DNA of 64,000 bases from contig NZ_JQNN01000001.1 of assembly GCF_000745265.1 (NCBI RefSeq), positions 1,488,001 to 1,552,000 on the forward strand, given 5' to 3'. The position numbers and the translations under genes were made by a program. Shown in pieces: positions 1-32,044 of the stretch; position 1 is the stretch's first letter, and the number at the start of each line of letters is the position of its first letter. Under the pieces are notes generated by a model. That model saw only the letters and a list, made by a program, of their open reading frames with translations, was not told where the DNA came from and did no database searches. The DNA comes from Massilia sp. 9096 (GTDB lineage: Bacteria > Pseudomonadota > Gammaproteobacteria > Burkholderiales > Burkholderiaceae_D).

Positions 1-1716
1 TTCCGGCGCGAATCACTTAATGCCCTCGAGGCTGATATTCAGGCCGGTATCGACAGTGAGGGAGCGTTTACTGAGCGGCTGGGCAGGACCGTTGTTCGAC
101 ATGGCCTCGCCGAGAAACGTGATGCCGCTTTTGGAAAATTCCTCGGCCTAGATCTCTTCGACCTGAAAAAAATAACCAATCTCCCCATCGAACTGCTCAA
201 TGACTTTGCTTGGTCGCCTGGACAGGAAACGGATTTCCTCAGCCCTGGAGACTTCAAGGGTTGGCCGCTGCGGATATGGCCCACGTTTAAGCGGCCTTTC
301 CTGAAAGTCGCAAAAAGGTACTACTGCTTTGACCAGACCGTTCTGTTCGATCACTTCTTCCGGCAGCTCGAGAAACGCGTCTACAAAGTTGACGAAGCAA
401 CAAAGGCATGGATTGCGACGCGGAAGGACGTTACCGAACGTCTGCCCTTTGAACACTTGGCTAGGATTCTCCCAAAGGCAACGCAGTTCCAGGAGATCTA
501 CTACCCACTTCCAGAAGACGGCAAGAAGACCAAAACGTATGAAACCGATGGAATCATCATTTACGATGACCATCTCTTCGTCATCGAAGTCAAATCCGGA
601 GCGTTCACCTATACGGACCCGACCACGGATTTCAAGGCGCACCTGAAGTCGCTCGAAGCACTACTAGCAGACCCCGCAAAACAGGGAAGCAGGTTTCTGA
701 AGTATCTGCGCGGATCTGAAGAGGTGCCCATTTTTGACAAGCACGGGAAAGAAGTCGTTCGAATCCGCAACGAGGACTATCGCCAGGTTACGTTGTGCGC
801 TATTACGCTCGATCAATTCACTGAAATTGCGGCTCAGACCCAGCGGGTTAGCGAAATCGGAGTAGCGCTCGGAACTGAACCGCTATGGGCACTGTCTCTC
901 GGGGACTTACGTGTATATGCCGACATATTCTCCAACCCGTTGGAGTTCCTGCATTTTATCGAACAGCGAAAGGAAGCTTTTGCATCCTCAAAAGTGCAAC
1001 TGGACGACGAGATCGATCACCTCGGGCTATACCTGAAGCACAACCACTACGTTACGCATCTCGAGGACGCCATGCGCGCCCCGAAAGCGCGCATCCACGC
1101 TCTTGGGTACCGGCAGAAGATCGACGAATTCTACAGCGAGCGGTTACGCGACCCGTCTGCCCTATCGCCCCTTCGGCAGGAAATGCCACCGCTCATGGCA
1201 AAGGTCTTGGACCTCTTGGCACTATCTGGAAAGCCAGGTAGGTCCGCGATCGCTGCCTATATCCTAGACCTTGGAGGATACTGGCGCACGGATATCTTTA
1301 ATCACGTCCAGCGGGAAGTTGAGCGGGCGTCCGATTCCCGGCCGGGTCCGTGTTCCTCTCATGGGGACGTACGACTGACGGTAGCCCCTTGGAGTGATCG
1401 CTGGGGCGCTCCTCTGTCCAAGGAGATGCTGGAGCACGTGAAGGCAGTGATGCTCCTTCATGGCGAAATCGACAGGCACCTCTTGGAGTTGACGTTCGAT
1501 GCGGAAGGGGAACTTTATGCCGTAGAGTGGAGGTTAGTGAGGCAGTCCGATATATCTCTACTTGAACGTCCAAGGCTCGCCCAAATGGCCGAATTGCTGC
1601 GTGAGAGGCGGCTCAGCCGGCGAACGGCATCCGGGGCACGTGTTGGAAGGAACGAGCAATGCCCTTGCGGAAGCGGGAAGAAATTTAAGAAGTGCTGTAT
1701 CGAACGAGCAGCGTAA
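1..1716 (+). CDS. SEC-C motif protein with PD-(D/E)xK nuclease signature (5' end outside window)
   Basis: The frame is open without a stop from base 1, so the gene starts left of the window; the TTG at 457 is internal. At least 571 residues are present. In window-frame numbering, D183, E196 and K198 (547-594) form a D-x12-ExK pattern in alternating hydrophobic strands (TDGIIIYDD, then FVIEVKSG), the classic metal-binding core of restriction-type and NERD-type nucleases. The last 20 residues carry a SEC-C zinc motif (CPCGSG...KKCC). A SEC-C tail on a nuclease is known from several defence-type proteins, where it is thought to bind zinc and partners. It is followed after 6 nt by the next gene, so it is probably the first or an early gene of an operon. 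Base composition is much lower in GC than the core genes, which suggests transfer. The nuclease fold is an inference from motif spacing; the exact family is not identified. Confidence 0.8.
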   Translation, partial: FRRESLNALEADIQAGIDSEGAFTERLGRTVVRHGLAEKRDAAFGKFLGLDLFDLKKITNLPIELLNDFAWSPGQETDFLSPGDFKGWPLRIWPTFKRPFLKVAKRYYCFDQTVLFDHFFRQLEKRVYKVDEATKAWIATRKDVTERLPFEHLARILPKATQFQEIYYPLPEDGKKTKTYETDGIIIYDDHLFVIEVKSGAFTYTDPTTDFKAHLKSLEALLADPAKQGSRFLKYLRGSEEVPIFDKHGKEVVRIRNEDYRQVTLCAITLDQFTEIAAQTQRVSEIGVALGTEPLWALSLGDLRVYADIFSNPLEFLHFIEQRKEAFASSKVQLDDEIDHLGLYLKHNHYVTHLEDAMRAPKARIHALGYRQKIDEFYSERLRDPSALSPLRQEMPPLMAKVLDLLALSGKPGRSAIAAYILDLGGYWRTDIFNHVQREVERASDSRPGPCSSHGDVRLTVAPWSDRWGAPLSKEMLEHVKAVMLLHGEIDRHLLELTFDAEGELYAVEWRLVRQSDISLLERPRLAQMAELLRERRLSRRTASGARVGRNEQCPCGSGKKFKKCCIERAA

Positions 1717-1722
1717 TCAGCG

Positions 1723-3066
1723 ATGACCATACCCGTCGTTCATGCATCAAATGTGCCGCTATTGAAAGCGCACCGAAACATATCTCCTGAGCTCCCATCT
1801 ATGAAATTTGAACAAATTTATGCGAAAGTCGATGACCAATACTTCAACTCCGGAGATTTTAACGGACTTCCGGTCAGGGCGCTTGCGGAGCACTTCGACA
1901 TAGACTCTCCCGAGTTCCGCGACCATGTGAGAGAGGCAATCGAATCGGACGTCATCACTGCCCGCGTTGGGGGAAATCCGCATATCCTAGCTTTCTCATC
2001 GATGCTGAAGGACGATGTGCTTAAAGCGTTCGATAACGTGACGAGTATCGCTGGAGTTTGTCTCTATCCACATGCGAATCGGCTAAAGTTCTCACCGAGG
2101 CTCACGTCGTACAGCGACCGCCCATATGATTTGGAATTGGCTCGCGGCAATGGGCAACTCGATTTTCGCACCTTCGACCTGGCAGTACTGGAACAGTACC
2201 GCAACGACCCACGCTACTCTTACGAGACCGACTTTATCCATGGTCAGATCTGCATCGAGGACGATTATTACGAGTCCTCCGGGGTTCCCGAACACGACCA
2301 GATCCTCCTGCAGACCTTCGGGTTCGCGTACGATGACGACCTGAACAGATACGTCGCAGTGTACCTGCGCTACCTTTCCGACTTGAGTCCGGAACATCAA
2401 AGGATCTGGGCCGCGAAAGAGGTAAAAGGCGACATAAGACTGCATCCTGACTATTTTGAAAGCACCATTAATGGGTCTTGGGGAACTCGTCTCTCTATCT
2501 TCGAAGCATTCGTAATGGAGCTCGAAGTCGTAAATGGGATGAGCAGGCTCATGGGAAAACCGGAACTATTCAGAAACACTTTCAGAGAAAGCCGTCCAGC
2601 AAAGTTCGGATTCCTGCTCCGGCCGACTGCCGCCGAGTTCAACGACTTCGTTCTGCTTCTAGATAAGATGATGTCGGAGAATTTGAACAAGGATTTTTTC
2701 AAGGGAGACCTTGATCTCGAGACAGAAACCCCACGCGACGACGGGAAAATTATCGTGCAGCCGAAGGGTACCGTGACATTACTCTCCGAATGGTTCGCGA
2801 AGAAATTCTGCGCAGCGGACAACACTCCCGTGCTAACGATGGTGGCGGCGTTTAAGGAAGTTCGTAAGCTGCGCCAGCGACCCGCCCATGTCCACAAAAT
2901 GGATGGGTTTGACCAGGCGTACTTTAAGACACAACGGGAACTAATCATCAAGTCGTACGACGCAGTTCGGACTATCAGACAGGCGTTTGCTAACCATCCC
3001 GGCGTGAAAAGAAGTCCACCGAAATTCAGCGAGCAGCTATTCAACGGCGAAATCTGGGACATCTAG
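1723..3066 (+). CDS. Uncharacterised protein with C-terminal LRxRxxH (HEPN-like) motif, paralogue of 4695-5882
   Basis: A 447-aa protein of no family I recognise. The ATG at 1723 lies 6 nt after the upstream stop; an internal ATG at 1801 is an alternative start. There is no signal peptide or membrane segment. Four blocks recur in the 395-aa protein at 4695-5882 at similar spacing: VLEQY...DP..Y near residue 155, LSPEHQRIW at 221-229, ELFRNT at 281-286, and EVRKLRQRPAH at 379-389. The last contains R384-x4-H389, which fits the Rx4-6H signature of HEPN ribonuclease domains and lies in predicted helices near the C-terminus, as in many HEPN proteins. HEPN assignment is tentative: one motif is not proof. 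The position between two proteins with nuclease signatures suggests they act together, possibly in anti-phage defence; that role is inferred from context only. Confidence 0.75.
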   Translation: MTIPVVHASNVPLLKAHRNISPELPSMKFEQIYAKVDDQYFNSGDFNGLPVRALAEHFDIDSPEFRDHVREAIESDVITARVGGNPHILAFSSMLKDDVLKAFDNVTSIAGVCLYPHANRLKFSPRLTSYSDRPYDLELARGNGQLDFRTFDLAVLEQYRNDPRYSYETDFIHGQICIEDDYYESSGVPEHDQILLQTFGFAYDDDLNRYVAVYLRYLSDLSPEHQRIWAAKEVKGDIRLHPDYFESTINGSWGTRLSIFEAFVMELEVVNGMSRLMGKPELFRNTFRESRPAKFGFLLRPTAAEFNDFVLLLDKMMSENLNKDFFKGDLDLETETPRDDGKIIVQPKGTVTLLSEWFAKKFCAADNTPVLTMVAAFKEVRKLRQRPAHVHKMDGFDQAYFKTQRELIIKSYDAVRTIRQAFANHPGVKRSPPKFSEQLFNGEIWDI

Positions 3067-3116
3067 CCTCAAAAGCGTCCCTATAATCTCACGGACCTCC
3101 TAAGCTAAATACGCTC

Positions 3117-4472
3117 ATGCTACCGACACTGACAATCCGTCCGATTAGTGAATTCGACATTGATGAAATAATCCAGACCGCTGGTGGAATCCGAGCACAT
3201 GAGGACGCGCATCGGAGAGCAAGAAAAGGGGCTGACTACCGGCTTAAAGAAGCCGTCATCGAACTAAAGATACTTGAAGAGGACGGCCTTTCGAAGCCAG
3301 AGCGCCAGGCAAAACTAGCGGCTCTATTCCATACGGTTGCGCCTGATCGTCCAGTCATCGTCCTAGATAAAAACAAGCTTCCAGAATCACTCCATCGCGA
3401 CTACAACCGTATCTTAGAAGGTCCAATAAAGACAGCGGTATCGAAAGCGCGCGTCCAGCTCGCCCAATCGAGGGAGGAGCTCGATGGAACGAATGCTTCC
3501 ATATTGATGATCATCAACAACGGTTACACCGCACTTCGCCACGAAGAGCTAATGGCCATGGCCGCGAATAGGATTCGGAACGACACAGCCGAAATTGACG
3601 GGCTCGTAGTGGGAGGATGCTATTACTATAGCGACGGATTTGATTCGTTCTACATATGGCCTCTCGAATATGTACCAATTAACGTATCGAAACCTTTTGA
3701 TTTCGAAGCGCTTCGCGCTGCGTGGTACTCGTTTTCAGAGCGGTTCATGACCCAACTAATGCAGTCGCCAGCCGGAAGAGCTGCGACTAGAGGGCCAGTG
3801 ATCGACCAGCAGTTCGACGTCGGGGGCACCACCTTCGTCATGCCAACGCCACGAATGGGTGAGCAGTCGAGCCTTTATTACCGAGGACGTCCTCGGCAAA
3901 ACTCGTCTGGAATCGAAACGTGCCCTGAAGTGGCAAGAGTTCAAGCCGAGATAGACCAGAACGATTGGTTGAAATTTCAGAATGTCCTAAATAACCTTGC
4001 CGGGCAGACGTACCAACAATGGCGGCTGAGCCTTGCAGACAAATCTAAGGTCGGGAGCAACCTGCAGCCCGTCATCACAATGCCGGTAAGGTTCGAAGAT
4101 TGGAGGGTTTGGTTAGAAAGGAAGAAGGTCGCCGCTTCGACGCAATCAATCCATGTTTTCGCTACCGACCTTTTCGAGCAAGCAGTAAGGGATACGATGG
4201 AACGTTCGATCGAATGGCACGAAAAACGGATACTTCCTGCTCGCTACGTCCTCTTGATAACGGAGGAAATTGGTCAGGATAAGGCTAATGACGTATCGCG
4301 AATTGGGATTGCATGGTCGAGCGTAAATGATGAGCAGCCGCAGATTTTTCCACTGCTGGAGGACGCTCGCATTTTCTTTGAACATGCGCTTGCGCTCGCT
4401 TCAGCATACGCTATCCGCGAACGCATCGACTACGTGGTTTGGCACAAAAACTTGGAGTACGGCTGGTATTGA
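3117..4472 (+). CDS. Uncharacterised protein with N-terminal D...ExK nuclease-like motif
   Basis: A 451-aa soluble protein, third in the same-strand run and 50 nt after the upstream stop. Residues 38-51 read GADYRLKEAVIELK; D40, E49 and K51 give the D-x8-ExK spacing of compact PD-(D/E)xK nucleases, followed by charged helix (ILEEDGL). The middle and C-terminal parts (residues 130-451) show mixed alpha/beta composition without motifs I recognise. The pattern of a small D...ExK module at the N-terminus of a larger protein occurs in uncharacterised phage-defence and SMEK/VRR-type nucleases, but I cannot assign a family. Base composition is intermediate and codon use is unlike the core. No clear Shine-Dalgarno is seen; the ATG is the first in frame. 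The likely role is an effector or partner in the operon. Confidence 0.7.
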   Translation: MLPTLTIRPISEFDIDEIIQTAGGIRAHEDAHRRARKGADYRLKEAVIELKILEEDGLSKPERQAKLAALFHTVAPDRPVIVLDKNKLPESLHRDYNRILEGPIKTAVSKARVQLAQSREELDGTNASILMIINNGYTALRHEELMAMAANRIRNDTAEIDGLVVGGCYYYSDGFDSFYIWPLEYVPINVSKPFDFEALRAAWYSFSERFMTQLMQSPAGRAATRGPVIDQQFDVGGTTFVMPTPRMGEQSSLYYRGRPRQNSSGIETCPEVARVQAEIDQNDWLKFQNVLNNLAGQTYQQWRLSLADKSKVGSNLQPVITMPVRFEDWRVWLERKKVAASTQSIHVFATDLFEQAVRDTMERSIEWHEKRILPARYVLLITEEIGQDKANDVSRIGIAWSSVNDEQPQIFPLLEDARIFFEHALALASAYAIRERIDYVVWHKNLEYGWY

Positions 4473-4694
4473 CCTTGATGACCGAACGTATGAACGCGGC
4501 ATGCGTTTCGGCACCCTGCTCAGCCGCTAATGTTCGGAAGTAGTCCATCGCGAAGTCTCAGCAGTCAGATGGCTTCTGTATTGTTGGCTGCGCTGCTGCG
4601 CTGCTTCGCTTTCGTAGCGCTCGTACGGTTATTGGACTGGCAGCTCATGGGGGTTACGTAGCGAAGCATAGAATGAAGAACAGCGGAAGCAAGA

Positions 4695-5882
4695 GTGAAA
4701 AACATGGCGAAGACCCTAGAGCAAAAAGTACTTTCTTGCGCAGTAGATCAATGGAACAAGTCCCACGCTGGTATCACTAGCATTAATATAGCGAGGCGAA
4801 TCCGATCATCTAACGTCAAGGTTATGGCGGCCATGATTGCCTTGGAGGCTGCAGGAAAATGCAGTCTGAACAAGAATGTAGAGTTTTTTACTGTGAGCGT
4901 TGGAAAGCGTGGAATGAAGTTCGCCAAGAAGGCGACGATTGCCCACGTAATCTTTCCCAACAAGGAAATACTGACCGACTATTTCTACAGCTCTGGCTTG
5001 GCACGCCAAGGCTTATCGGTATATGTTGAACGACTTCACAAGGGCGCACATCAATATGCACTGGTGTACTTCTCTGAAGAAGTGCTTGCGAAGTACCTTG
5101 ATCGGCCAGAGTTTTACGATGTTGAAGATTCCCTCTCAGGCGGATCGATCCGCTCCAACACTGATGATGATACCAAACAAATCTACGTAAGGCATGGACG
5201 GCGCCAGCTCGCAAATGGAAGAAGTGCGGTCGTGGCCCCATACAAGGACCTCGCTAACTTGGACGCCGCGCAACAGCGCTATTGGCATGGCTTTGAAATT
5301 GTTGAACCTGATATTGTCGCCCCTGACCAAAATTATTCCAACTACATACAGAGGACTTTTGACGGTGCTTTCGTAGACTACGAAAATCCGCTGGGGAACT
5401 TCATGGAAGCGGTGAAGTATGTCAATAGTCACCTGGGTGGCCTAGCCCTGTTTAGGAATACCAGCAACCCCCACTTAAGAATTCCCGTGGAGAACACTGA
5501 GAAGACGTTTTACGATGCATGTAGCGAGCTCTTCAAAATAATCGGTCCTGATAGCCTTATCGTCTCTACCATCAAGAAGATACTGGTCGACGACTTTGGA
5601 ACTGCAGAAGCTGAGTTCATCCATAAAAAATCTGGTAGAGCCCTAAGCCCATTCCAGCAGCTACAACTACTTGAGACAAAAGCTGGGATAGAGCCAAAGG
5701 CGACAACGTCCATTGACGAAGTGAAGCACCTCCGCGTGAGAGCCGACCATGCGATTGTGGAACCAATGTCCTCGGATACCAATTTTGTCGAGGAGTTCTA
5801 CGCCTTGTGCAATAACGTCGGCTATGCGCTGATGTTCTTAGCTATAAGACTGGAAGCGGCAAGAGCGAAGGTAAAATCCTGA
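4695..5882 (+). CDS. Uncharacterised protein, diverged paralogue of the 447-aa protein
   Basis: A 395-aa protein starting at GTG 4695 or ATG 4704; AAGAG at 4691 fits the latter slightly better. It lies 222 nt after the previous gene and may have its own promoter. It shares with the 447-aa protein the blocks VLAKY...RPEFY (130-141), LDAAQQRYW (189-197), ALFRNT (251-256) and EVKHLRVRADH (342-352), with gaps of 58, 64 and 94 residues against 65, 62 and 101 there. R347-x4-H352 again fits an HEPN-like Rx4-6H motif. The first 80 residues look like a helical winged-helix-type region (ARRIRSSNVKVMAAMIALEA), absent from the paralogue. It is the most AT-rich gene of the window, with sampled lines near 42-48% GC, a sign of recent transfer. 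Function unknown. Confidence 0.75.
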   Translation: MKNMAKTLEQKVLSCAVDQWNKSHAGITSINIARRIRSSNVKVMAAMIALEAAGKCSLNKNVEFFTVSVGKRGMKFAKKATIAHVIFPNKEILTDYFYSSGLARQGLSVYVERLHKGAHQYALVYFSEEVLAKYLDRPEFYDVEDSLSGGSIRSNTDDDTKQIYVRHGRRQLANGRSAVVAPYKDLANLDAAQQRYWHGFEIVEPDIVAPDQNYSNYIQRTFDGAFVDYENPLGNFMEAVKYVNSHLGGLALFRNTSNPHLRIPVENTEKTFYDACSELFKIIGPDSLIVSTIKKILVDDFGTAEAEFIHKKSGRALSPFQQLQLLETKAGIEPKATTSIDEVKHLRVRADHAIVEPMSSDTNFVEEFYALCNNVGYALMFLAIRLEAARAKVKS

Positions 5883-6270
5883 GCAGTGTCATCATGCGTT
5901 TCGACGGCGGACCCGACAGTGCTATCTACAAAGCGGTACTTAACGATGTCTCGAATCACAACTACGTGTTTTTAAGATGGTTCTTTGATGGAGTCCTTAG
6001 CTCTGGAAACAGACGTCAAGCACCCGTTTAAGATTTGTTTGTGCTGTTGACACGGACGTCAAGCATGAGCGCGGATACAGAGCCTTGAGCGTTTTTAGGC
6101 GTGGGAATGGACCGCGATCGCGCGAACTCGAGAGTCGTTACATCCTGCACGTGTCTCGTGCACTCACACGTCCGCCACCTGCCGTTTTTTCGGAAGTAAA
6201 ACTGGTACTCCGCTCCGGCATGGACTAATTTGATGTCTTTGGTGTCGAACTTGTCTCGTGGGAGAGGACC
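5883..6270. other. Intergenic region carrying the probable left end of the Tn7-like element
   Basis: There is no convincing gene in these 388 bases. They separate the AT-rich island from the transposition operon. Two copies of ACGTCAAGCA lie at 6013-6022 and 6056-6065. TGAGCGCG at 6066-6073 occurs inverted near the other end (13809-13816), and GGAAGTAAAACTG at 6192-6204 occurs inverted at 13728-13740. A TGTTGACAC string at 6045-6053 has the TGT start typical of Tn7-family termini, but no matching terminus is seen on the right. The exact end base cannot be set from the sequence alone. A purine-rich GGAGAGGA (6261-6268) is the ribosome site of the next gene. Confidence 0.55.
6192..6204 (-). repeat. 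Candidate TnsB-binding site, left end
   Basis: GGAAGTAAAACTG is the exact reverse complement of 13728-13740. Allowing one mismatch, the match extends to 16 bases (TANCAGTTTTACTTCC). A 13-base identity between two short transposon-end regions in inverted orientation is unlikely by chance and is the arrangement expected for TnsB sites. Confidence 0.55.
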
Positions 6271-6933
6271 ATGCCGAGAACCCCGACCTTGCCTTCGCGA
6301 CAGCGCGCCCGCGTGCTCGATACGTATCGCAGTCGCGGTCACCGGAACAGCAATCTGTGGCTCGTGTACAGCGTCAAGCAGGATCAGGACATCCTCCTCC
6401 ATTCGGACCGAAGTCTGGTGCACTGGCTTGCTTTCCTCGAGACCGATCCGTCGGTGCGTGGGTTCCGCCCCATTACCGATGAGCTGGTTGCCCAACTGGG
6501 GGCCGGTCCCACAGGGGCGACGATCCTGGAGCGACGAGACCGGCAGCTCGAAGTGCATCTTGTCGCAGGTAGGCGCCGCGAGGTGACGACTGTTGAGACT
6601 GGTGTTGGCCCTGCAAAGGTCCGCGTCATTACGGCTGACGAACTTCAGGCGCATTCGCGGGTCGCACTCCGTTGGCTAAAGGCCATCGGTTACGCCGGCC
6701 TATCACGCTTCAGTGATCTAACACCGGTACTTAACCAGCTCATCCCATCCTTGGAGCGGCGCCGGAGCGGCAAGGTCAACGACTTGTTCGAGGACCTGCA
6801 GGGCTTTGATCGAGCGGCAGTGTATGCGGCCTTGGTAAAAGCGGCCATTCACGGAAGCGTCGAACTCGACCTGACGTCGCATGGGTTATGCGGTGCCAGC
6901 GGCTGGAAAAGAAAAGTACTGCAGGCGCGGTGA
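6271..6933 (+). CDS. tnsA: TnsA-like transposition protein, catalytic residues apparently lost
   Basis: A 220-aa protein at the first position of a tnsABC-tniQ operon. GGAGAGGA 3 nt upstream supports the ATG. Residues 48-67 (ending LETDPSVRGFRP) correspond to the TnsA region where a Glu precedes the (E/F)DPxV..f..QP strand, and 92-110 to the PD...ExK strand pair. In active TnsA the triad is Glu, Asp and Lys. Here the expected positions read H51, EVH (94-96) and VETG (108-111), so the acidic/Lys triad is not recognisable. Tn7 TnsA makes the 5' cuts that allow cut-and-paste; a dead TnsA would leave TnsB strand transfer alone and give cointegrates. The rest (120-190) is helical and may contact TnsB or TnsC. 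Assignment relies on gene order plus weak motif similarity. Confidence 0.6.
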   Translation: MPRTPTLPSRQRARVLDTYRSRGHRNSNLWLVYSVKQDQDILLHSDRSLVHWLAFLETDPSVRGFRPITDELVAQLGAGPTGATILERRDRQLEVHLVAGRRREVTTVETGVGPAKVRVITADELQAHSRVALRWLKAIGYAGLSRFSDLTPVLNQLIPSLERRRSGKVNDLFEDLQGFDRAAVYAALVKAAIHGSVELDLTSHGLCGASGWKRKVLQAR

Positions 6934-6937
6934 CAAC

Positions 6938-8911
6938 ATGGGTACGCGCCAGGAAGTCATCAAGGATTCTTTACCCATCGATCTATGGCCTTCCGTCCTG
7001 GATGCCGAGTTTGATGATGAGCGACGTGAGCAATTCAGAGCGCAGTCTGAAGCCATGCGCCTGTATTTCTCCTTTGTGCCCGTAGGCGAAATCGAACAAC
7101 GTACCGGGGTAAGCCAGACCTCCCTGCCGAGGCTTGCCAAGCGATGCCTCAAGTTGGCAGACGACGGACGAATCCACGGATTTCGAGCGTGCATTCCGTA
7201 CCTTCGAACGGGGCAGTATTCCCGAACAACCGAATTGCCCCATGCTCCGCCTGGTGAGCGCGCGGGCATGGCAGGCGCATTAGGCCTCGTTTTGAAGCGA
7301 TTCCCGGATATCGAGCAGCTGCTCGGCAAATACACGAAAAATGAGGCAAAGCGCCTAGCCGTGCCAGAACACAAACTGCGGCCATGCGACCTACACCGGG
7401 TTTTCCTACGCTGCCTGGCGGACAAAGGTGTTGGTCCGACCGAATGGCCTTTCACGACGAAGTACCGAGGCCTGCGCTCCATTCAACAATTCATGAAAGA
7501 GACCCTCGACCGTAATTTCGCACGGACTACGATTGCACGGGAAGATAGTGTGGCCCGTGCCCACCTTAGTGTCGGAACCGGCATTTTTTCCCTGTTGAAC
7601 TTCGAAGAGCCCTACGACGCCGTCGAAATCGACGCCTACAAAATGGAGGCGCACGTGACGGTGGCGTTTCGTACACCGGAAGGGCTCGAAACCGATTTGC
7701 GGCTGGACCGCCTAAATCTCATCGCCGTCGTCGACAGGTTCAGCAGTGCTGTGTTGGCCTATACCGTCGTGTACCGTCCCGAGGTCAACGCGGATGACAT
7801 CCTGAAAGTGATCCGCGATGCGGCCAACGGAACCTGGGCGCCGATGGACCTGACCATACCGGACCTGCGCTACCCGAAGGGCGGCGGCTTGCCCAGCGGC
7901 GTGATCGAGGGGGCGCAGGGCGCGTTCTGGAGCGCGACTCTATTCGACGGGGCACTGGCGCATTTATCGTCCGCCGTACATGCGCGTGCGCGCGCCGCAC
8001 TGGGTTTCGCCATCAATTGGGGGCCTGTGGCCCATTTTGAACGCAGACCGAACGTAGAGCGAACCTTCAATCAGATTGCCCGAACACTCTTCAAGCGCTT
8101 ACCGTCGACGACCGGGGCAAGCCCCCAGAGCGGCCGGGCTGACGAAGCCGAGCGCAAAGCCGTCGAACACCGCGTCCGAGCGGCCGAGGTGGAGCAGCTG
8201 CTCGATGTCGCGTTTGCCCAGCATAATGCGACCCCGTCGGAAGGCCTGTCGCAACTGACGCCACTGGAAGCAATCAGGTATTTTGTCGATCGGCCCGAAC
8301 GCTTCGAGTTTCGTAAGCGGCCTGCAGGTACCCCTGCGGAAGCGGGGTTCAAGCAATATGAATCGGCGGTGGTACGCGGTGACCGTAAGGCCGGGCGGCG
8401 GCCCTATATCCAGGTCGACCGTGTTCATTACACTAATCCCGTGCTGGCGACATCCGGGCATCTGATCGGTACGCGCCTGTTGCTGGAAGTCGATGAAGAC
8501 GATATGCGGCAGGTGAGGGCGTATCTGGCGAACGGTGCCGAACTGGGTTTCCTCAAAGCGCACGGGAAATGGGGTGTGACCAAGCACAGCCGGCGCACGC
8601 GCAAGGCAATCAACAGCCTCATCACGAAGCGGCTAATCACGGTCACCACTTTCGACGATCCCATGCAGGTCTACATGCGCCATCTCGCGACGCAGAAGGG
8701 AAAGCGCAGCTCGTCCGGGCCGCGGCCGAAGCAGGCGACCGAAATTGTCCGGCTCAAGAAGGAAGTGGGTGTCAATGCGCAGTCCATTCAGGCACCGCCG
8801 CCTGTGCCCGAACCTGTTAGTCCGCCGCGTCGTGTCATCGATGAAATGCGTGGCCGTCTGCTATCGGAGGCGCCGTCCGAGTTCTTCACGAAAGTCAAGA
8901 ACAGGAGATAG
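6938..8911 (+). CDS. tnsB: TnsB/TniA-family DDE transposase
   Basis: A 657-aa protein if started at the ATG 4 nt after the upstream stop; a longer in-frame start at 6881 would overlap tnsA by 53 nt and is less likely. It is an rve-type integrase with an N-terminal helix-turn-helix (VGEIEQRTGVSQTSLPRLA). The catalytic acids are D232 (VEIDAYKM), D266 (AVVDRFSS) and E374 (NVERTFNQ). It cleaves the 3' ends and performs strand transfer. The C-terminal 150 residues contain a beta-rich domain and a basic tail that in Tn7 and Tn5053 relatives contacts the TnsC-type ATPase. Length and order match TnsB/TniA (about 560-700 aa). Confidence 0.9.
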   Translation: MGTRQEVIKDSLPIDLWPSVLDAEFDDERREQFRAQSEAMRLYFSFVPVGEIEQRTGVSQTSLPRLAKRCLKLADDGRIHGFRACIPYLRTGQYSRTTELPHAPPGERAGMAGALGLVLKRFPDIEQLLGKYTKNEAKRLAVPEHKLRPCDLHRVFLRCLADKGVGPTEWPFTTKYRGLRSIQQFMKETLDRNFARTTIAREDSVARAHLSVGTGIFSLLNFEEPYDAVEIDAYKMEAHVTVAFRTPEGLETDLRLDRLNLIAVVDRFSSAVLAYTVVYRPEVNADDILKVIRDAANGTWAPMDLTIPDLRYPKGGGLPSGVIEGAQGAFWSATLFDGALAHLSSAVHARARAALGFAINWGPVAHFERRPNVERTFNQIARTLFKRLPSTTGASPQSGRADEAERKAVEHRVRAAEVEQLLDVAFAQHNATPSEGLSQLTPLEAIRYFVDRPERFEFRKRPAGTPAEAGFKQYESAVVRGDRKAGRRPYIQVDRVHYTNPVLATSGHLIGTRLLLEVDEDDMRQVRAYLANGAELGFLKAHGKWGVTKHSRRTRKAINSLITKRLITVTTFDDPMQVYMRHLATQKGKRSSSGPRPKQATEIVRLKKEVGVNAQSIQAPPPVPEPVSPPRRVIDEMRGRLLSEAPSEFFTKVKNRR

Positions 8912-8913
8912 CC

Positions 8914-9900
8914 ATGCCTAGCCGGACCGGCCCAGCAAGCAAACCGTTATTCAGCGCGGATATGCGCGAAAAAACGCTGGGAAGCCATCCCGTCAGGGGT
9001 GGCGACTACACATTGCCGACCCCCATGATGCAACGGACCTACGCCCTGGTGCGCGAACAGGTCTGGGCACGCAGGACCGGGACCGTTTTCTATGCATCGC
9101 CGCGTATGGGCAAGACACGTTGCGCGATCGCGATTCGCGACTTGCTACGCCAAGAGTTTCCAAATGTCTATGTGACCTTGCTCAGCACTCGCCCGAGCCC
9201 GCGCCCGTCGACTTCGCACATGCTCCGGCTCATTTTGGAAGCCGAGTCGCATGTGCTGTCGCGGCGCCCGGATGCGGACTTATTGTTCGGAAATGCAGTG
9301 GCCGATATCCGGGTCAAGGCGGCGCGCATCGGCGCCAAGCAGTATGTGCTGTTGATCGATGAAATGCATCTGCTCAACGATGTCGATCTCCAGCAACTGG
9401 TGTGCTTCCACAACCAGCTCGAGCTGCAGGATCTCCGGATGACAGCCATTTCCTTCGCCCAGCCGGAAATCCTGCACCGGCGCACCAGCCTTTTGGCCAA
9501 TAATGCGCGCCAGATCATCGCGCGCTTCCTTAGCGACACCCTCCAGTTTGACGGCTGTGCCAGCGAGGGCGACTTCGGTAGCTTGTTGCGATCGTACGAC
9601 CTTGCCTCGGAATACCCGGAGGGATCGGGTATCACGTACACGCAATTCTTCTTTCCGATCGCGTACTTGGCCGGTTTTCGTCTAGAGAACTATCGGGCAT
9701 CCATGTGGGAAGCGCTGCATCGCGCGGCAGGGAGCATCGCCGCGCAGGGCGTACCGATGGAACATATCTGCCTGACGATCGAGGAGCTGCTGCTCTCGCT
9801 GAGGCGCCAGGACAGCCCGGACTTCGTCCTGAGTAATGAAGAAATCGATGCAGCCGTCGCGGCATCGAAGTTGAGATCGTTCAGCGACGTGCTGAGTTGA
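8914..9900 (+). CDS. tnsC: TnsC/TniB-family AAA+ transposition regulator
   Basis: A 328-aa ATPase starting 2 nt after the tnsB stop, with ribosome site AGGAGA inside the tnsB end. The Walker A is 61-68 (ASPRMGKT), with Ala for the usual first Gly, as is common in TniB. Walker B is 144-150 (VLLIDEM). A sensor-type stretch follows (MTAISFAQPEI, 176-186), and an arginine near R204 may be a finger. In this family the ATPase forms filaments on target DNA, links the TniQ/TnsD target selector to TnsB and gives target immunity. Length (TniB about 300, TnsC about 550) places it nearer to TniB. Confidence 0.88.
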   Translation: MPSRTGPASKPLFSADMREKTLGSHPVRGGDYTLPTPMMQRTYALVREQVWARRTGTVFYASPRMGKTRCAIAIRDLLRQEFPNVYVTLLSTRPSPRPSTSHMLRLILEAESHVLSRRPDADLLFGNAVADIRVKAARIGAKQYVLLIDEMHLLNDVDLQQLVCFHNQLELQDLRMTAISFAQPEILHRRTSLLANNARQIIARFLSDTLQFDGCASEGDFGSLLRSYDLASEYPEGSGITYTQFFFPIAYLAGFRLENYRASMWEALHRAAGSIAAQGVPMEHICLTIEELLLSLRRQDSPDFVLSNEEIDAAVAASKLRSFSDVLS

Positions 9901-9918
9901 GTTCGACACGAGGATCGT

Positions 9919-11376
9919 ATGGCCAGACGACCGGGCGCTCAGCGGCTGACATGGAATCCCGATCTGCAGTTTCCCTTCGAGTCAGGCTGGTCGCTGTTCC
10001 AGAAAGTCAAGGTGCTCAACAACCTACGGGACCACGAGCTGGTCGAACTCATTGCGCGCGAGCCGGTGCCGTTAAGGAAAGGTCGCCTTCGTGACTGCGC
10101 GGACAGCAGCTGGATCGATTTCAACCGCTTCAGCGAATTGCTTGAGGTACCGGCGTTGGAGCTTAAGAACGGCTTCTGGGACCAACTCGGCATTGCAGTC
10201 GCACGGCCGCGAGAATACGAGCTGCGGCACTGCAAAATGTGCTGGGAGATGCATCGCTATCACTGTGTATTATTCGACCTAGCCTGGCTGAAGCGCTGTC
10301 CCTGGCACGACTTCACTATCGGTGGTCCTGGCGGGATGTCTCCCGCGACCTCGGGCACCCGGGCAGCACGAGGGGAGCAGCTTGCTGTACCCTTTAATGA
10401 GCTACTATCGACCGCACCAATGGCGATGCTAAATCGAAACCGGCTAATCGGGTATGTGCTGGAGTACCTGGAATGGTGGTGGGCGGTGCAGGCAGCCGTG
10501 CCAGAGGCGGACGCACTGCTGTCAAGCCTTGTCAGCACAGTGCTCATTTCGGAACGATGGCCTGAGACTTTACGGTGGCAGGCTGGGTTCGCAAATGCGC
10601 TCGCACCAACCCGCTACAACTCGTGGATACTAAAAGATGTTGTCCCGGCTTGGTGCCGCTACGCGCGGGTAACGGACGCGGGCCGCAGGAACGGAGCGCT
10701 CAACGACAAATACAACATTCGCGATGGAACCGGCTGCTGTTACCGCGCGATCCGCAGGCATATCTTTCGACGCTATATGCGCCAGCATCGGGTTTGCCTC
10801 AAAAGACTCGCCAAGCTCAGCCGTGAGGATTGTCTTTCGCTTTCCGCGGATGGTATCTGCGCAACTTGCCTTGCCTATACCGTCTGGCGGATGTCGATTG
10901 AGCAGGTTATTGCGGTCGAGGGTGTATTCCTCCCTCGGCGAACAAACTACGAAATCCGGCTAACCGAACCGTGGGCCTCTAACCCGTCCGACGACCGCGC
11001 CAGGCTGAGCTTCACCTACATGCAGTTCTTTGGCATTTGGTCCGCCATCGCCGACCGGACTCCTGGCGACTCTTTCACTGTCGGGTTGCAGGAGACCATC
11101 TCGTCTCCGCAGATCCTGTTCACCCGGGACGCAAATCAGCCGGCTAACGCGCCACTGCGCAAGATTCACTGCATTTATCCGGCGGGTGAAGCGATGGCGG
11201 TAAAAGCCGGGCGGCCATGCAAGGCACCGTGGACCCTGCGCCCGACAGAGCACGCGTGCCTCTTGCGAAGCCAGGCATGGCTTAGTTCCGTCAAACCGCT
11301 ACCAAAAACAATGTTCGAACTGTATGCGGAAAGCGGCCCGGAGGCCGTCGAAACCATCAGACGCCTGTGGCTATAG
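9919..11376 (+). CDS. tniQ: TniQ/TnsD-family target-selection protein
   Basis: A 485-aa protein with GAGGA just upstream of the ATG. The TniQ zinc signature is C105-x2-C108, followed by C127-P-W-H130 (RCPWH). A second possible knuckle lies near residue 305-320 (CLSLSADGICATC). The length is that of TnsD (about 500), not short TniQ (about 400), so the C-terminal half probably reads a specific DNA target. It ends at 11376, overlapping by 20 nt the convergent recombinase gene. In Tn7 TnsD selects a fixed site, and in Tn5053 TniQ works with resolvase sites. The site used here is unknown, but the dif sequence just outside the right end is a candidate. Confidence 0.85.
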   Translation: MARRPGAQRLTWNPDLQFPFESGWSLFQKVKVLNNLRDHELVELIAREPVPLRKGRLRDCADSSWIDFNRFSELLEVPALELKNGFWDQLGIAVARPREYELRHCKMCWEMHRYHCVLFDLAWLKRCPWHDFTIGGPGGMSPATSGTRAARGEQLAVPFNELLSTAPMAMLNRNRLIGYVLEYLEWWWAVQAAVPEADALLSSLVSTVLISERWPETLRWQAGFANALAPTRYNSWILKDVVPAWCRYARVTDAGRRNGALNDKYNIRDGTGCCYRAIRRHIFRRYMRQHRVCLKRLAKLSREDCLSLSADGICATCLAYTVWRMSIEQVIAVEGVFLPRRTNYEIRLTEPWASNPSDDRARLSFTYMQFFGIWSAIADRTPGDSFTVGLQETISSPQILFTRDANQPANAPLRKIHCIYPAGEAMAVKAGRPCKAPWTLRPTEHACLLRSQAWLSSVKPLPKTMFELYAESGPEAVETIRRLWL

Positions 11377-12307
11377 CCGGGGTTTGCGCGGCACGCATTT
11401 GCGCGAACGGATCGGCGACGTCCAGATATCGCATGGCAGAGTGGGCATCTTGCCAGCCGACGTATTCCATCAGCGTTTTCAAGTCCCAGCCACTCGACGT
11501 CGCCCAGTTCGCAAAGCCTCGACGTAACGAATGCCCGCTGTACTGGTGCGCGAACGCGATGCCTGCACTATGAAACAGGGTTCTCAGAACCGGAACCAAA
11601 CTGTTGATATGCAACCCCGCTTCGCTGACGTTTCCCCATCGATCTACCGCACGGAAGACTGGGCCATCGGTAATCCCTGCCAGTGCAATCCAGGCTAAAT
11701 AGGCCTCGACCGGGCAAAGGGTGCGCAGCGCGGGGGCCTTGAACGTCTTGCCGCGGGATTCCCGATCGCTTTTTGATTGGGAAAGGAAGCAGGTCATCCC
11801 TTGCCCAGAGACTGCGTTGACATGCTCAACCCGCAGGCGTGCGAGCTCGTCACCGCGAAAACCACGCCAGAAACCGAGCAGCAGGAGGGCGCGGTCGCGC
11901 GTATAGCGCAGCCGTTCCGGTTTGCGGCCAACAAGCGCGGCGGCCGCAATCGCTTCGTCGAGCCAATGCGCGATCTGGGCGATTTGTTCCAGTTGGATTG
12001 GCCGTGCTTGCTTCTGCTGTGCAGGATGCAAAGCGCGGATCCCCTTCAAAACCTTGCGGACTATCTGAGCTTTAGTAGGATCTGAAAACCCGTGAGCATG
12101 ATGCCAGTCAGCGAGCGCCGACAGCCGTTGCTGCAGCGTGCTGACCGACAGCGTTTCGGCGTGCTCGGCGAGATAGCGTGCAACGGTATCCGGGCTCGCT
12201 GGCAATAGGCCGCCCCATTCGGTCTCGAAGTGCTGCAAGGCAGATCGGTAGCTGCGCCGTGTGTTTTCACGTATAGCGGCGCGGGCGTAGGTATCGACAG
12301 TGCCCAT
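11357..12307 (-). CDS. Tyrosine recombinase, TnpS-like
   Basis: A 316-aa site-specific recombinase. Catalytic residues are R151 (GFRGDELARL), K179, H259 and R262 (GHSLRRG), W285 in the second His/Trp position and Y294 (AMRYLD); all are present. The N-terminal SAM-like core-binding domain covers 1-105. It is transcribed divergently from a KfrA-type coiled-coil gene across a 198-bp gap holding a palindrome. That layout is the tnpS-rst-tnpT layout of Tn4651-type transposons, where the pair resolves cointegrates. Its gene converges on tniQ with a 20-nt overlap, so it looks fixed in the element. It could instead be a generic phage-type integrase; the neighbour and intergenic structure favour resolution. 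Confidence 0.85.
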   Translation of the reverse strand: MGTVDTYARAAIRENTRRSYRSALQHFETEWGGLLPASPDTVARYLAEHAETLSVSTLQQRLSALADWHHAHGFSDPTKAQIVRKVLKGIRALHPAQQKQARPIQLEQIAQIAHWLDEAIAAAALVGRKPERLRYTRDRALLLLGFWRGFRGDELARLRVEHVNAVSGQGMTCFLSQSKSDRESRGKTFKAPALRTLCPVEAYLAWIALAGITDGPVFRAVDRWGNVSEAGLHINSLVPVLRTLFHSAGIAFAHQYSGHSLRRGFANWATSSGWDLKTLMEYVGWQDAHSAMRYLDVADPFAQMRAAQTPAIATGV

Positions 12308-12391
12308 GAACCAAAGTCCTCAAGATTTGCCGGCAGGAGGAAAGTGTACCGGTCACCTGCCATTTTAGGCCTGAAAGACATGCTCACACGA

Positions 12392-12408
12392 GATAATTCT
12401 TAATTATC
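12392..12408. promoter_or_regulatory. Palindrome in the recombinase-KfrA intergenic region, possible recombination core
   Basis: GATAATT-ctt-AATTATC is a perfect inverted repeat. It is nested in weaker flanking dyads: AGACATG at 12376-12382 against CATGTCGTCT at 12410-12419, and TTAGGCC at 12365-12371 against GGCCTAA at 12424-12430. Two arms around a short AT-rich centre fit a tyrosine-recombinase core site or an operator. It lies 85 bp upstream of the recombinase start. Confidence 0.5.
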
Positions 12409-12451
12409 CCATGTCGTCTTTTGGGCCTAAATGAGCACAAAGGCAACCGAG

Positions 12452-12488
12452 GTTAGTATGTACTACGTTAGTATGTAATTTAGTATGT
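12452..12488 (+). repeat. Three direct repeats TTAGTATGT upstream of the KfrA-type gene
   Basis: GTTAGTATGTA occurs at 12452-12462 and 12467-12477, and TTAGTATGT again at 12480-12488. The repeat starts are 15 and 12 bp apart. They end 18 bp before the gene start, so they are well placed to be binding sites of the KfrA-type protein for autoregulation, or accessory sites of a resolution site. Confidence 0.6.
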
Positions 12489-12505
12489 TATTTCGGAGGT
12501 ACGTG

Positions 12506-13543
12506 ATGGCTCGCTCAGGTGTGTATTTTTCAGATGTCAAACGCGCACGTGACGAGGTGATCGCTCAGGGCCGACACCCATCAATCGACGCGGTCCGGGC
12601 TGCGTTGGGCAATACAGGGTCCAAGACGACGATCCACAAATACCTGCGCGAAATCGAGGTCGAGGAGGGCGGCGCGACACAGGCTGTCAGTGATGCCATC
12701 ATCGCCCTGGCGACGCAGCTGGCAGAACAGCTGAAACGGGAGGCTACGGCTGAGCTCGACGAGGTGCGGGCGCGGATGGACGATCAGCGCGCCGCTGACG
12801 AACGTGCCCGGGCTGAACTGGAAGCACAGCTCGGCGAGGCGCGACGGGCTGTCAACGATGTCTCGCGGCGCCTTGAAGCGCGCGAGCAGGACCTTGCGAC
12901 CGTCCAAAACCAGCTCGGCGCCGAGAAGATCGCGCGGCATACCGCGGAGCAGCGCGTGCTTGATCTGAATGGTAGGCTGGCCGACGCCGAACGGCACCAA
13001 GCGTCGCTGGAAGAAAAGCACAAACATGCGCGGGACGCCTTGGAACATTATCGTACGGCGGCCAAGGAACAACGCGAACAGGAGCAACGCCGGCATGAGC
13101 ACCAAGTCCATGGGCTACAAACGGAACTGAAGCAGGCGCAGCTTGCGTTTTCGCTCAAGCAGGAAGAGTTGACGCGATTGAACAAGGAGGCGGCCGCGCT
13201 CGCGACCGAACTCGGTTCGGTCAAGCAGGCTCTGCATCTTGAACGTGAAGCCAGCCGCAACCAAGCGAAGAAGGTCGAGCAGCTGCAGGCCGTCGAGGCG
13301 CGGGCTGCCGTGCTCGAGGCACAACTGGTCGACAGCAGGACGCGGTTGGCTGAGGCTGGGGAAACGGCCGCGCGCGCGGACATCGCGTTCGACGAATTGC
13401 GGCGGCAAATCTCCGCGCTCGAAGTGGAACTGTCTGCGGCGAAAAGTGCAATCGCGTTGGAAGAACGCTTGGCGAAGCTGGACAAAGCAGTGTTTGGTGG
13501 TGAGCCGACCAGCAGGCTGAACGCGCAGTCGGGAAGCGAGTGA
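12506..13543 (+). CDS. KfrA-family DNA-binding coiled-coil protein, TnpT-like
   Basis: A 345-aa protein. The ATG at 12506 is preferred to the upstream in-frame ATG at 12485 because GGAGG (12495-12499) lies 6 nt before it. Residues 1-55 form a KfrA N-terminal helix-turn-helix domain (SIDAVRAALGNTGSKTTIHK). About 60-335 is one long, highly charged coiled coil rich in Glu, Arg, Ala and Gln. KfrA proteins are plasmid autoregulators; TnpT of Tn4651-type transposons has the same build and helps the tyrosine recombinase TnpS to resolve cointegrates. Divergence from the recombinase gene and the repeats in between point to the TnpT role here. Codon use is high-GC, unlike the island to the left. Confidence 0.82.
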   Translation: MARSGVYFSDVKRARDEVIAQGRHPSIDAVRAALGNTGSKTTIHKYLREIEVEEGGATQAVSDAIIALATQLAEQLKREATAELDEVRARMDDQRAADERARAELEAQLGEARRAVNDVSRRLEAREQDLATVQNQLGAEKIARHTAEQRVLDLNGRLADAERHQASLEEKHKHARDALEHYRTAAKEQREQEQRRHEHQVHGLQTELKQAQLAFSLKQEELTRLNKEAAALATELGSVKQALHLEREASRNQAKKVEQLQAVEARAAVLEAQLVDSRTRLAEAGETAARADIAFDELRRQISALEVELSAAKSAIALEERLAKLDKAVFGGEPTSRLNAQSGSE

Positions 13544-13687
13544 CGATGGCAGTGCGGTTGGCGATCGGCGCGCCGTCCAGGTTCGGATTGCTGGACGGGG
13601 CTGACGGCCGCTGGCGCAGTTGAAGATCGACACCAGATCATCTAAGCTGAACGACGCGTCGCCCGACGCATTTCCCGGAAGCGGTTA

Positions 13688-13763
13688 GAAGCAAATTTGT
13701 GAGACAGATGCGGACAGCGGCATCTAACAGTTTTACTTCCAAAGATCTAACAGCTTTGCTTCC
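13688..13763. repeat. Candidate TnsB-binding sites, right end
   Basis: Two 19-bp direct copies of ATCTAACAG(T/C)TTT(A/G)CTTCC lie at 13722-13740 and 13745-13763, 23 bp apart. A third, inverted copy, GAAGCAAATTTGTGAGA at 13688-13704, matches 14 of 17 positions. The 13722 copy shares 13 bases with the inverted left-end site. Repeat length and spacing resemble the 22-bp TnsB sites of Tn7. Confidence 0.6.
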
Positions 13764-13817
13764 GAGAGCTAAGGCAGAAAAAATGCACGCACGCGGCCGG
13801 AACACCCTCGCGCTCAC

Positions 13818-13845
13818 ACTTCGCATAATCTATATTATGTCAAAT
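13818..13845 (+). other. dif: dif-type XerCD recombination site
   Basis: The 28 bases read as XerC arm ACTTCGCATAA, centre TCTATA and XerD arm TTATGTCAAAT. By my comparison 23 of 28 positions equal the E. coli dif site. Differences fall in the four outer bases of the XerC arm, one central base and one XerD-arm base. In proteobacteria one dif per chromosome lies in the terminus and is where XerC/XerD resolve chromosome dimers. It could instead be a dif copy made by an element that exploits XerCD. Confidence 0.85.
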
Positions 13846-30999: not shown

Positions 31000-31114
31000 A
31001 GGATGACCCTCGGATGATATTGCGATTAACCGTCTATTTTACCATCCGATCGGGCCGGCTACAGCGGCGCCTCGTTCCGCTTTCGCGATGACGCTTCTTG
31101 CGCCCCGACCGCGA

Positions 31115-32044
31115 TCAGGCGATGCGTACGGTCGGGTAGTCCGACAGCGTCATGCGCCAGGCATCGCCGTCCGACACCAGGCGCGCCTGCGCACCGAACG
31201 GGATCGTCACGTGGCGCGCGATGTGGCCGAACTCCAGGCCGGTCAGCACCGGGCACGGCAGCGTCGCGCGCAGGTAGGCCAGCATCTCGTCGAAGTTGTA
31301 GCCGTTGTCGTTCGGCCCCAGCCGGTAGCCGGAAAAATCGCCCAGCACGACGGCGCGCTGGCGCTGCAGCACGCCGCCCTGCATCAGCTGCAGCATCATG
31401 CGCTCGACCCGGAACGGGTGTTCGGCGATGTCTTCCAGGTACAGAATGCCGCCGTCGATGCGCGGAAAATAGTCGGTGCCCATCAGCGACACGACCATCG
31501 CCAGGTTGCCGCCCCAGGCGGTGCCGGATACGTCGAGCGCCGGGTTGCCCGTGCCCCGCCCTTCGAGCGTGTGGGTAGGGCCGGCCAGGCAGTGCAGGAA
31601 ATCCTCGAGCGTGAAATCGACCGGATCGCGCACGCCGATGTCGCTGACGAACATCGGGCCGGCATAGCTCAGGGCGCCGGCCTTCGCGTACAGGGCCATG
31701 TGCAAGGCCGTCACATCCGAAAAACCCACGAAGATCTTGCCGCTGGCCGCCATTTTCTCGTAATCGAGGTGCGGCAGCAGGCGCGTCATGCCGTAGGCGC
31801 CGCGGATCGCCATCACCACCTGCACGTCGGGGTCGTCCGTGGCTGCGTTCAGCCGGGCCAGGCGGACTTCGTCGGTGGCGCCAAAGCGCTGGTGGCGGGC
31901 GTCATGGTCGTAGTAGTTGCGGACCAGGATGCCGCGGGGTTCGAGGCGGGCGATGCCGCGCGGGATGGCTTCGGGTTCGGGCGCGTAACTGCCGGGCGCG
32001 ACCAGGGCGATACCAAGGCGCTTGACGATGTGTTGGGGAATCAC
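31115..32044 (-). CDS. ldcA: LD-carboxypeptidase (murein tetrapeptide carboxypeptidase)
   Basis: A 309-aa S66-family serine peptidase that trims the terminal D-Ala from cytosolic murein tetrapeptides in cell-wall recycling. Nucleophile S109 in VGFSDVTALH; charge-relay Glu in ILYLEDIAEHPFRVERM and His in the last third (GHIARHVTIPFG). Start is GTG, overlapping the stop of the upstream hydrolase as GTGA. No signal peptide, as expected for a cytosolic enzyme. Confidence 0.92.
   Translation of the reverse strand: MIPQHIVKRLGIALVAPGSYAPEPEAIPRGIARLEPRGILVRNYYDHDARHQRFGATDEVRLARLNAATDDPDVQVVMAIRGAYGMTRLLPHLDYEKMAASGKIFVGFSDVTALHMALYAKAGALSYAGPMFVSDIGVRDPVDFTLEDFLHCLAGPTHTLEGRGTGNPALDVSGTAWGGNLAMVVSLMGTDYFPRIDGGILYLEDIAEHPFRVERMMLQLMQGGVLQRQRAVVLGDFSGYRLGPNDNGYNFDEMLAYLRATLPCPVLTGLEFGHIARHVTIPFGAQARLVSDGDAWRMTLSDYPTVRIA

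Follow-up and report, generated by a model that had tools for sequence, protein, structure and literature searches.

The window is a 64,000-nucleotide stretch of the Massilia sp. 9096 genome (5.71 Mb in two contigs), positions 1,488,001 to 1,552,000 of contig NZ_JQNN01000001.1 (G000:C1:1488001-1552000). Beside the chromosomal dif site, it carries a Tn7-like transposon in which tnsA-like, tnsB, tnsC and tniQ genes are followed by a tyrosine recombinase gene and a divergent helper gene. Gene starts and strands were taken from a list of open reading frames (ORFs), and domains from a Pfam scan of the window proteins. G-numbers denote genomes (G000 is that of the window), L-numbers denote loci, and P0050 is a TnsA-like homologue. 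The features of the element and its target are the following.

6271..6933, forward strand: tnsA-like gene, catalytic triad apparently lost
6881..8911, forward strand: tnsB, DDE transposase; D251, D356 and E393 invariant in 13 of 13 aligned TnsB proteins
8914..9900, forward strand: tnsC, AAA+ ATPase; PF13401 (AAA_22) at 3.1e-7
9919..11376, forward strand: tniQ/tnsD-type target selector, 485 aa; CxxC..CxxH, with an Azonexus homologue near the PF06527 cut-off
11357..12307, reverse strand: tnpS, tyrosine recombinase, 316 aa; convergent with tniQ with a 20-bp overlap; Phage_integrase at 6.6e-12
12386..12414, no strand: rst-like inverted repeat, core GATAAT-TCTTA-ATTATC at 12392-12408, the putative crossover region
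12453..12488, forward strand: three TTAGTATGT direct repeats before tnpT, starting at 12453, 12468 and 12480
12506..13543, forward strand: tnpT, KfrA_N coiled-coil helper, 345 aa; KfrA_N at 8.1e-23; ORF also readable from 12485
13685..13770, forward strand: right end; inverted weak site at 13685-13702, TnsB-type sites at 13725-13742 and 13748-13765, presumed terminus ...CTTCCGAGAGCT at 13770
13818..13845, forward strand: chromosomal dif, outside the element; XerC arm 13818-13828, spacer 13829-13834, XerD arm 13835-13845

The island has a GC content of 55%, versus 65-67% in the surroundings. The six genes claimed by an earlier note on this DNA were all found in place as ORFs. The extent that it gave to the element, 6271..13543, holds these genes and misses the right end up to 13770, dif at 13818-13845 and the left part.

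The set expected of a Tn7-like element, a DDE transposase TnsB with TnsC and TniQ, is present, TniQ being recognized only through a homologue and its zinc motif. In the Pfam scan, Mu-transpos_C remained under the cut-off on TnsB (19.5 versus 21.7 bits) and TniQ had no match. TniQ was assigned because a homologue from Azonexus, 27.9% identical over 473 aa, scores PF06527 at 1.6e-5 (26.0 bits, cut-off 27), and because the CxxC...CxxH motif is invariant in 26 aligned TniQ proteins. Searches returned 54 matches for the TnsA-like protein and 30 for TniQ, with Massilia sp. YMA4, LjRoot122 and X63 common to both. No relative was found by querying the genome contig collection with TnsB or the viral contig collection with a TnsA alignment.

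The TnsA-like protein looks catalytically dead, and an active cut-and-paste TnsA appears to be missing. The positions of the catalytic triad are established for TnsA. When the window protein was aligned with 43 homologues, the active-site columns were set on the motifs of P0050 by comparison with canonical Massilia TnsA proteins. P0050 retains E-D-E-K in these columns and four other homologues have Q-D-E-K. The window protein and 34 of the 43 homologues have S in the E column, A, G or T in the D column and A, T or G in the K column (S, A and A in the window protein); the four remaining homologues have mixed residues. When 25 TnsA-like proteins were aligned as a profile with seven canonical TnsA proteins using hhalign (probability 40.9, E 2.8e-4, 119 columns), the S, A and G/R of the window protein were placed opposite the E, D and K regions of TnsA. 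Pfam gave chance matches only on the window protein and none on 150-residue pieces of five relatives, and a PDB sequence search with the family gave four weak matches with unrelated names. Examined by eye, the Azonexus TnsA keeps D and EVK and no recombinase follows its tniQ, which fits a link between the loss of TnsA activity and the gain of a resolvase. The TnsA of G037, also examined by eye, has the E and has lost the D and K; this genome (TnsB 54%) carries another tyrosine recombinase, of 414 aa, in the same convergent place.

Judged from its sequence, a complete tnpS-rst-tnpT module is present beside tniQ. TnpS is 57.5% identical to that of Tn4651 and 58.7% to the recombinase of TnXax1 (pXAC64), and TnpT is 43% identical over 278 aa to that of Tn4651 and 40.5% to that of TnXax1. 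The Tn4651 proteins were taken, from their sizes and layout, to be the 'site-specific integrase' (30642-31613) and 'DNA-binding protein' (29463-30461) of pWW0; the pXAC64 pair lies beside the TnXax1 transposase at 8270-9544 and 9736-10791. The 345-aa length of TnpT assumes the ATG at 12506, where its homologues align. The catalytic block of TnpS appears intact, including HSLRRGF and the MRYLD tyrosine. In a maximum-likelihood tree of 36 rows, the recombinase belongs to a 26-member clade with five TnpS references (support 98/99). XerC, XerD, Cre, two phage integrases, a 390-aa recombinase encoded beyond dif and four recombinases of related elements lie outside this clade, on a tree with several long outgroup branches about which the program issued a warning. 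Compared with other recombinases at 1e-3, TnpS matches only that of p12939 (25.6%); the product of the 390-aa gene and the recombinases of G037, G042 and G053 gave no match.

The palindrome between the two genes is by itself within chance, as 15 of 300 shuffles score equally high. It is credible because near-identical sequence occupies the same place in TnXax1 (GATAAT-TCTAG-ATTATC), G018 (GATAAT-GTCTG-ATTATC) and G025 (L101, GATAAT-TCTTG-ATTATC); the rst core of Tn4651 is looser than that of the window. Repeats of AGTATGTA are common to the window gap, Tn4651 and TnXax1, and the TTAGTATGT repeats have no other copies in the 64 kb and no exact copy in G018. The earlier note had proposed a TnpS-like recombinase, a KfrA-type TnpT homologue and, between them, a gap with a palindrome and direct repeats. 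Each of these was borne out, with the recombinase apart from phage integrases, the gap like those of TnXax1 and Tn4651, and the full layout standing in a stretch, from tniQ to the right end, that has no Tn3 transposase gene. The layout itself is described for Tn3-family elements in PMC7157771, where, in the accessible part, one figure legend swaps the two names.

The recombinase was judged not to derive from a phage, since the 13 others listed of 32 phage matches are at most 30.5% identical. Two unannotated records of the phage collection, MT835554.1 (L243) and DQ115834.1, encode TnpS-like proteins that are 50-59% identical, H71 being headed unverified. They are possibly transposon DNA filed as phage.

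The pair could also be what remains of a Tn3-family transposon that landed in the element and plays no part in its movement. Close TnpS homologues do adjoin Tn3-family transposases on plasmids, and some serine resolvases in Tn7-like elements are cargo of this sort according to the accessible part of PMC8649781. Such an origin is unlikely here: from tniQ to the right end, the ORF list is free of Tn3 transposase genes, tnpS and tniQ overlap tail to tail by 20 bp, and tnpT homologues adjoin the dif-proximal right end of G025 (66%, almost the full length), of G053 (pieces of 72% and 93%) and of G011 (a 78% fragment). The tnpS gene was not seen in G025 in the final 240 bp before the contig end. Both genes are found in G018 (tnpT 46%, tnpS 59%), 2.4-4.6 kb from dif. 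Contigs carrying homologues of TnpS (best 120 of 2789) and of TniQ are equal in size and source in three cases beyond the window (38064, 62825 and 3679), which is an indirect sign of linkage; of 40 shifted controls, 38 gave no such coincidence and the other two gave one each. The corresponding comparison of the same TnpS homologues with TnsA is weak (7083 with the same source, 1763 and 1427 with different sources; controls up to 2).

The element ends on the right at 13770, leaving 47 bp up to the XerC arm of dif, and this terminus would, by analogy, read ...GAGAGCT. Positions 13820-13845 are the sole match to the dif pattern in the genome (up to 3 mismatches), and the 11-6-11 arms were assigned by analogy with the published dif in the accessible part of PMC10132070. 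The GC skew does not switch clearly at dif. The gene of the 390-aa tyrosine recombinase (13895-15067) begins about 50 bp beyond. For a survey of the distance between ends and dif, 64 loci were retrieved from Massilia genomes in the vicinity of dif or of the 390-aa gene; counting the window as well, 58 of these 65 contain dif. It is also present in 41 of 68 named loci, which were taken as relatives of a chromosomal window gene and are mostly from Massilia, plus Duganella, Pseudoduganella, Rugamonas and Telluria. Removal of exact duplicates left 80 loci.

In these 80 loci, the terminus pattern [CGT]GAG[AC]G[CT]T facing dif has 17 matches on the left side at 37-74 bp, 14 of which fall in the 40-59 bp bin, versus 0.26 per 20-bp bin elsewhere. 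The opposite orientation gives 3 matches on the left at 40-80 bp; on the right, 1 and 3 matches lie within 100 bp. The survey was then extended by five loci from other genera, and a slightly altered dif pattern and a broader TnsB-site pattern were used, giving 83 unique dif loci. On the XerC side, 27 dif-facing sites were found in 19 loci at 25-125 bp, with 3 more up to 1 kb; on the XerD side, 11 were found in 5 loci within about 120 bp, with 2 more up to 1 kb. Thus 22 of the 83 loci have a dif-facing TnsB-type site within 120 bp, two of them on both sides. Facing away from dif, there are 2 sites on the right and 14 on the left, of which 7, at 125-150 bp, correspond to the inverted right-end site. 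An unbiased count of 8-mers near dif was uninformative because native sequence is conserved between species, controls 150-750 bp away reaching similar or higher counts. A second family of Tn7-like ends (CACTTTTA[CG]TTC..CGGA and similar) was noticed in L085, L118, L119, L222 and L223, where the ends lie about 44-90 bp from dif on its XerD side and face it.

It is barely credible that the proximity of dif merely reflects mobile DNA accumulating in general around the terminus, or the 390-aa recombinase gene being the target. The terminus is a variable region; close homologues of the 390-aa gene, which lies about 50 bp past dif, were detected in 34 of the 61 genomes that were searched, namely in 33 of 37 genomes of the genus and, at 39%, in one outside it. 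The distance from end to dif is tight, as the 17 terminus matches demonstrate, and exact target duplications lie beside dif; the distance of the 390-aa gene from dif varies from 43 bp to 93 kb in the 19 genomes with both on one contig. Its presence in 33 of 37 Massilia genomes and this variable distance led to the rejection of the 390-aa recombinase as part or target of the element. It groups with recombinases of three related Tn7-like elements (99/98), and may be a domesticated element gene or the source of the element recombinases.

Complete insertions beside dif were delineated in relatives. In G042, the element runs from the left end AGCGCTCGTACC at C2:769928 to a right end at 847303, which is 58 bp away from the dif core; it is 77,376 bp long and has GCTAA duplicated at both flanks. 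In G059, 46 bp separate the right end from the dif core and 71,528 bp separate it from the left end, with TGCAG at both flanks. The right end of an older element lies 2 bp past the left-end duplication of G059 and is identical to the first over 200 bp, an arrangement that resembles repeated insertion at a single point. In G037, a left end and an older right end of the window type are two bases apart. Exact 5-bp duplications were thus found in two of the three end pairs of relatives tested (G042 and G059, not G034). As in Tn7-like elements generally, arrays of TnsB sites are inverted between the two ends; the termini are not 5'-TGT...ACA-3', since the duplications give 5'-AGCGCTC in G042 and 5'-AGTACTC in G059.

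The tns operons were then mapped relative to dif. TnsB relatives are present in 16 of 101 genomes screened. In ten of these, tnsB and dif are on one contig, and all ten operons are within 137 kb of dif and face it; in the other six they are on separate contigs. The distances from tnsB to dif are 5 kb in G000, 46 in G018, 82 in G027, 35 in G034, 70 in G037, 66 in G042, 99 in G053, 41 in G054, 137 in G059 and 68 in G060. Nine operons are on the XerC side; the exception, that of G053, is on the XerD side, and an end is present in the dif flank there. The contigs of G000, G027, G053 and G059 exceed 5 Mb. TniQ relatives were found in 9 of 294 family genomes screened, 7 of them outside the genus. 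Five of these 7 have dif by pattern, always on the TniQ contig at about 26-69 kb and with tniQ facing it; the two others have no dif match, and the TniQ match of G263 is a 65-residue fragment. The recurrent dif-proximal ends, the 5-bp duplications beside dif and the operons facing dif make dif the likely attachment site of this Tn7-like group.

Taken together, the data are best explained, with a probability of about three in four, by a Tn7-like element with a dead TnsA that would use dif as its attachment site and transpose replicatively, with resolution by TnpS, TnpT and rst. The element would insert about 47 bp outside the XerC arm with its right end towards dif, the target being read by TniQ, alone or with XerC/XerD bound to dif. 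The dead TnsA would be unable to cut the second strands; TnsB would therefore join the ends replicatively and leave a cointegrate, which TnpS and TnpT would resolve at the rst between their genes. It is fairly probable that, more broadly, a Tn7-like group of Massilia and related Burkholderiales has adopted dif, with families on the XerC and XerD sides and islands built by serial insertion, and that one lineage with a dead TnsA took up TnpS/TnpT/rst. In such a group, TniQ would probably be the reader, either of dif itself or of XerC/XerD bound to it.

An alternative function of the recombinase was considered, in which it would be a target selector comparable to TnsF of Tn6022, reading dif and taking no part in resolution. 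A tyrosine recombinase gene does adjoin tniQ, the target is itself a tyrosine-recombinase site, and TnsF is a selector derived from a recombinase (PMC10293859, accessible part). This function is very unlikely. According to the same portion of that paper, TnsF is encoded in a putative operon with tniQ, has 498 aa with N-terminal zinc fingers and lacks a catalytic site, whereas the window recombinase is convergent, has 316 aa and has its catalytic block intact; it also has its own TnpT and rst. Moreover, tnpS is confined to 2 of 62 Massilia genomes, while dif-proximal ends are found in many more. Tn6022 thus resembles the window element as a Tn7-like transposon with a tyrosine-recombinase relative adjoining tniQ, and differs in that its TnsF is inactivated, bears zinc fingers and targets comM.

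Several observations weigh against the proposed use of dif with replicative transposition. By pattern, 61 of the 83 dif loci have no dif-facing site, divergent ends being seen by eye in some of them (L066, L074, L091, L221, L224). The terminus and TnsB-site patterns were picked after the flanks had been seen, with internal controls (other distances, other orientation), and contig size bounds the tnsB-dif distance in most draft genomes. Both ends were found in G034 (38 kb) without a target duplication. The left end of the window element is uncertain, at -1061 or eroded near 6190, and with the end at -1061 there is no target duplication. At 1e-60, TnpS is found in only two of the 62 Massilia genomes, G000 and G018. 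The tnpS/tnpT pair, which the earlier note expected in related elements, is in none of the 11 related tns loci that were compared first (the contigs of L030 and L033 end before that place), and recurs in the form of tnpT in G025, G053 and G011 and of both genes in G018. Finally, the hhalign link between the TnsA-like family and TnsA is moderate (probability 40.9, E 2.8e-4), and a set that included a wrong ORF (L227) and a below-cut-off one (L235) gave a probability of 3.8 and E of 0.011.

The preferred scheme, a dif-targeting replicative element, was compared with known systems. Phages and dif modules also use XerC/XerD at dif, by a different mechanism. The nearest precedent found is the IS1202 family, insertion sequences of Acinetobacter described as 'dif site hunters' (PMC10132070, in its accessible part). 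They likewise have a TnsB-related transposase, lie next to dif on its XerC side in a fixed orientation and have a 5-bp duplication. They differ in having a single transposase in 1.5 kb, 5 bp from the XerC site, whereas here TnsABC and TniQ are involved, the elements reach tens of kb in relatives, the distance is about 47 bp, and different families occupy both sides of dif.

Tn5053/Tn402 elements have a serine resolvase, TniR, are not known to have TnsA, and target res. They resemble the window element as resolvase-carrying relatives of Tn7 that seek out sites of site-specific recombination, the difference being that the window element has a tyrosine recombinase in place of TniR. The accessible part of PMC7765201 calls this family 'res site hunters'. 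With Tn4651 and TnXax1, the element shares a homologous recombinase and helper, divergent genes and a gap with an rst-like core and repeats; its module differs in standing within a Tn7-like element, tail to tail with tniQ and without a Tn3 transposase.

The earlier note considered the combination of a replicative Tn7-like element with a tyrosine-recombinase resolution system to be novel. Tyrosine resolvases in Tn7-like clades, with predicted replicative transposition, had already been reported by Benler et al. in 2021 (PMC8649781); in the accessible text, TnpS, TnpT and rst are not named in the resolvase section, and a whole-word search of the paper gave no 'dif'. Their clades 2 and 3 share with the window element a tyrosine resolvase, impaired cut-and-paste and a predicted replicative route. 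They differ in that their branches lack tnsA, whereas here tnsA is present and looks dead. Loss of TnsA with gain of a resolvase matches their prediction for replicative Tn7-like transposons, and PMC11406308, in its accessible part, likewise states that elements without TnsA transpose replicatively, with a resolvase. In the literature covered, which took in the leading entries of the longer result lists and some papers in part and left preprints and most subscription journals outside its scope, no TnsABC/TniQ Tn7-like transposon at dif or with TnpS/TnpT was found, which is weak evidence of absence.

The dif site is present in most bacteria that have XerC/XerD. If the scheme is true, homing to dif would give a Tn7-like machine a safe-site address that is new and could be used widely, in addition to glmS, comM, tRNA genes and parE, and would explain the large accessory islands at the Massilia chromosome terminus. 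A transposon parked at a tyrosine-recombinase site of its host would carry a tyrosine recombinase of its own. A dead TnsA with a TnpS/TnpT kit would also be a natural test of whether the loss of cut-and-paste is paid for by a resolvase.

Other tyrosine recombinases of 406-414 aa were seen in related elements (L029:6214-7458, where it is convergent with tniQ, and L037:14034-15254); in this place, the window element has tnpS/tnpT. On a large Pseudomonas aeruginosa plasmid, p12939-PER (L027), a distant tnsABC is accompanied by a gene in the place of tniQ and a convergent gene for a 363-aa recombinase.

The left part of the element was traced beyond the window. The following two features precede tnsA.

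6190..6207, reverse strand: TnsB-type site upstream of tnsA, 1 mismatch to TAACAGNTTTNCTTCCNA
1..5882, forward strand: probable cargo region; end of an 868-aa NERD/SEC-C protein, then proteins of 447, 451 and 395 aa

With up to 3 mismatches, the TAACAGNTTTNCTTCCNA pattern has 4 matches in the 64 kb versus 0.22 expected, and the site at 6190..6207 is possibly a remnant of an inner left-end pair. An intact left end at G000:C1:1486939, window position -1061, would give an element of 14.8 kb and is probably the left end of the window element. Further left on the same contig, there are an older left end of the same architecture (L028:506-620) and the remnant of a second tnpT (L028:2620-2937), which point to an earlier related insertion in the same island. 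As a guess, the window element could be a hybrid generated by deletion between tandem elements. The 868-aa protein (L028:3110-5716, its end at window 1-1716) has NERD-like and SEC-C regions, and the three proteins that follow have no Pfam match. PADLOC matches in this region are weak and mostly C-terminal, and the four proteins are possible defence cargo.

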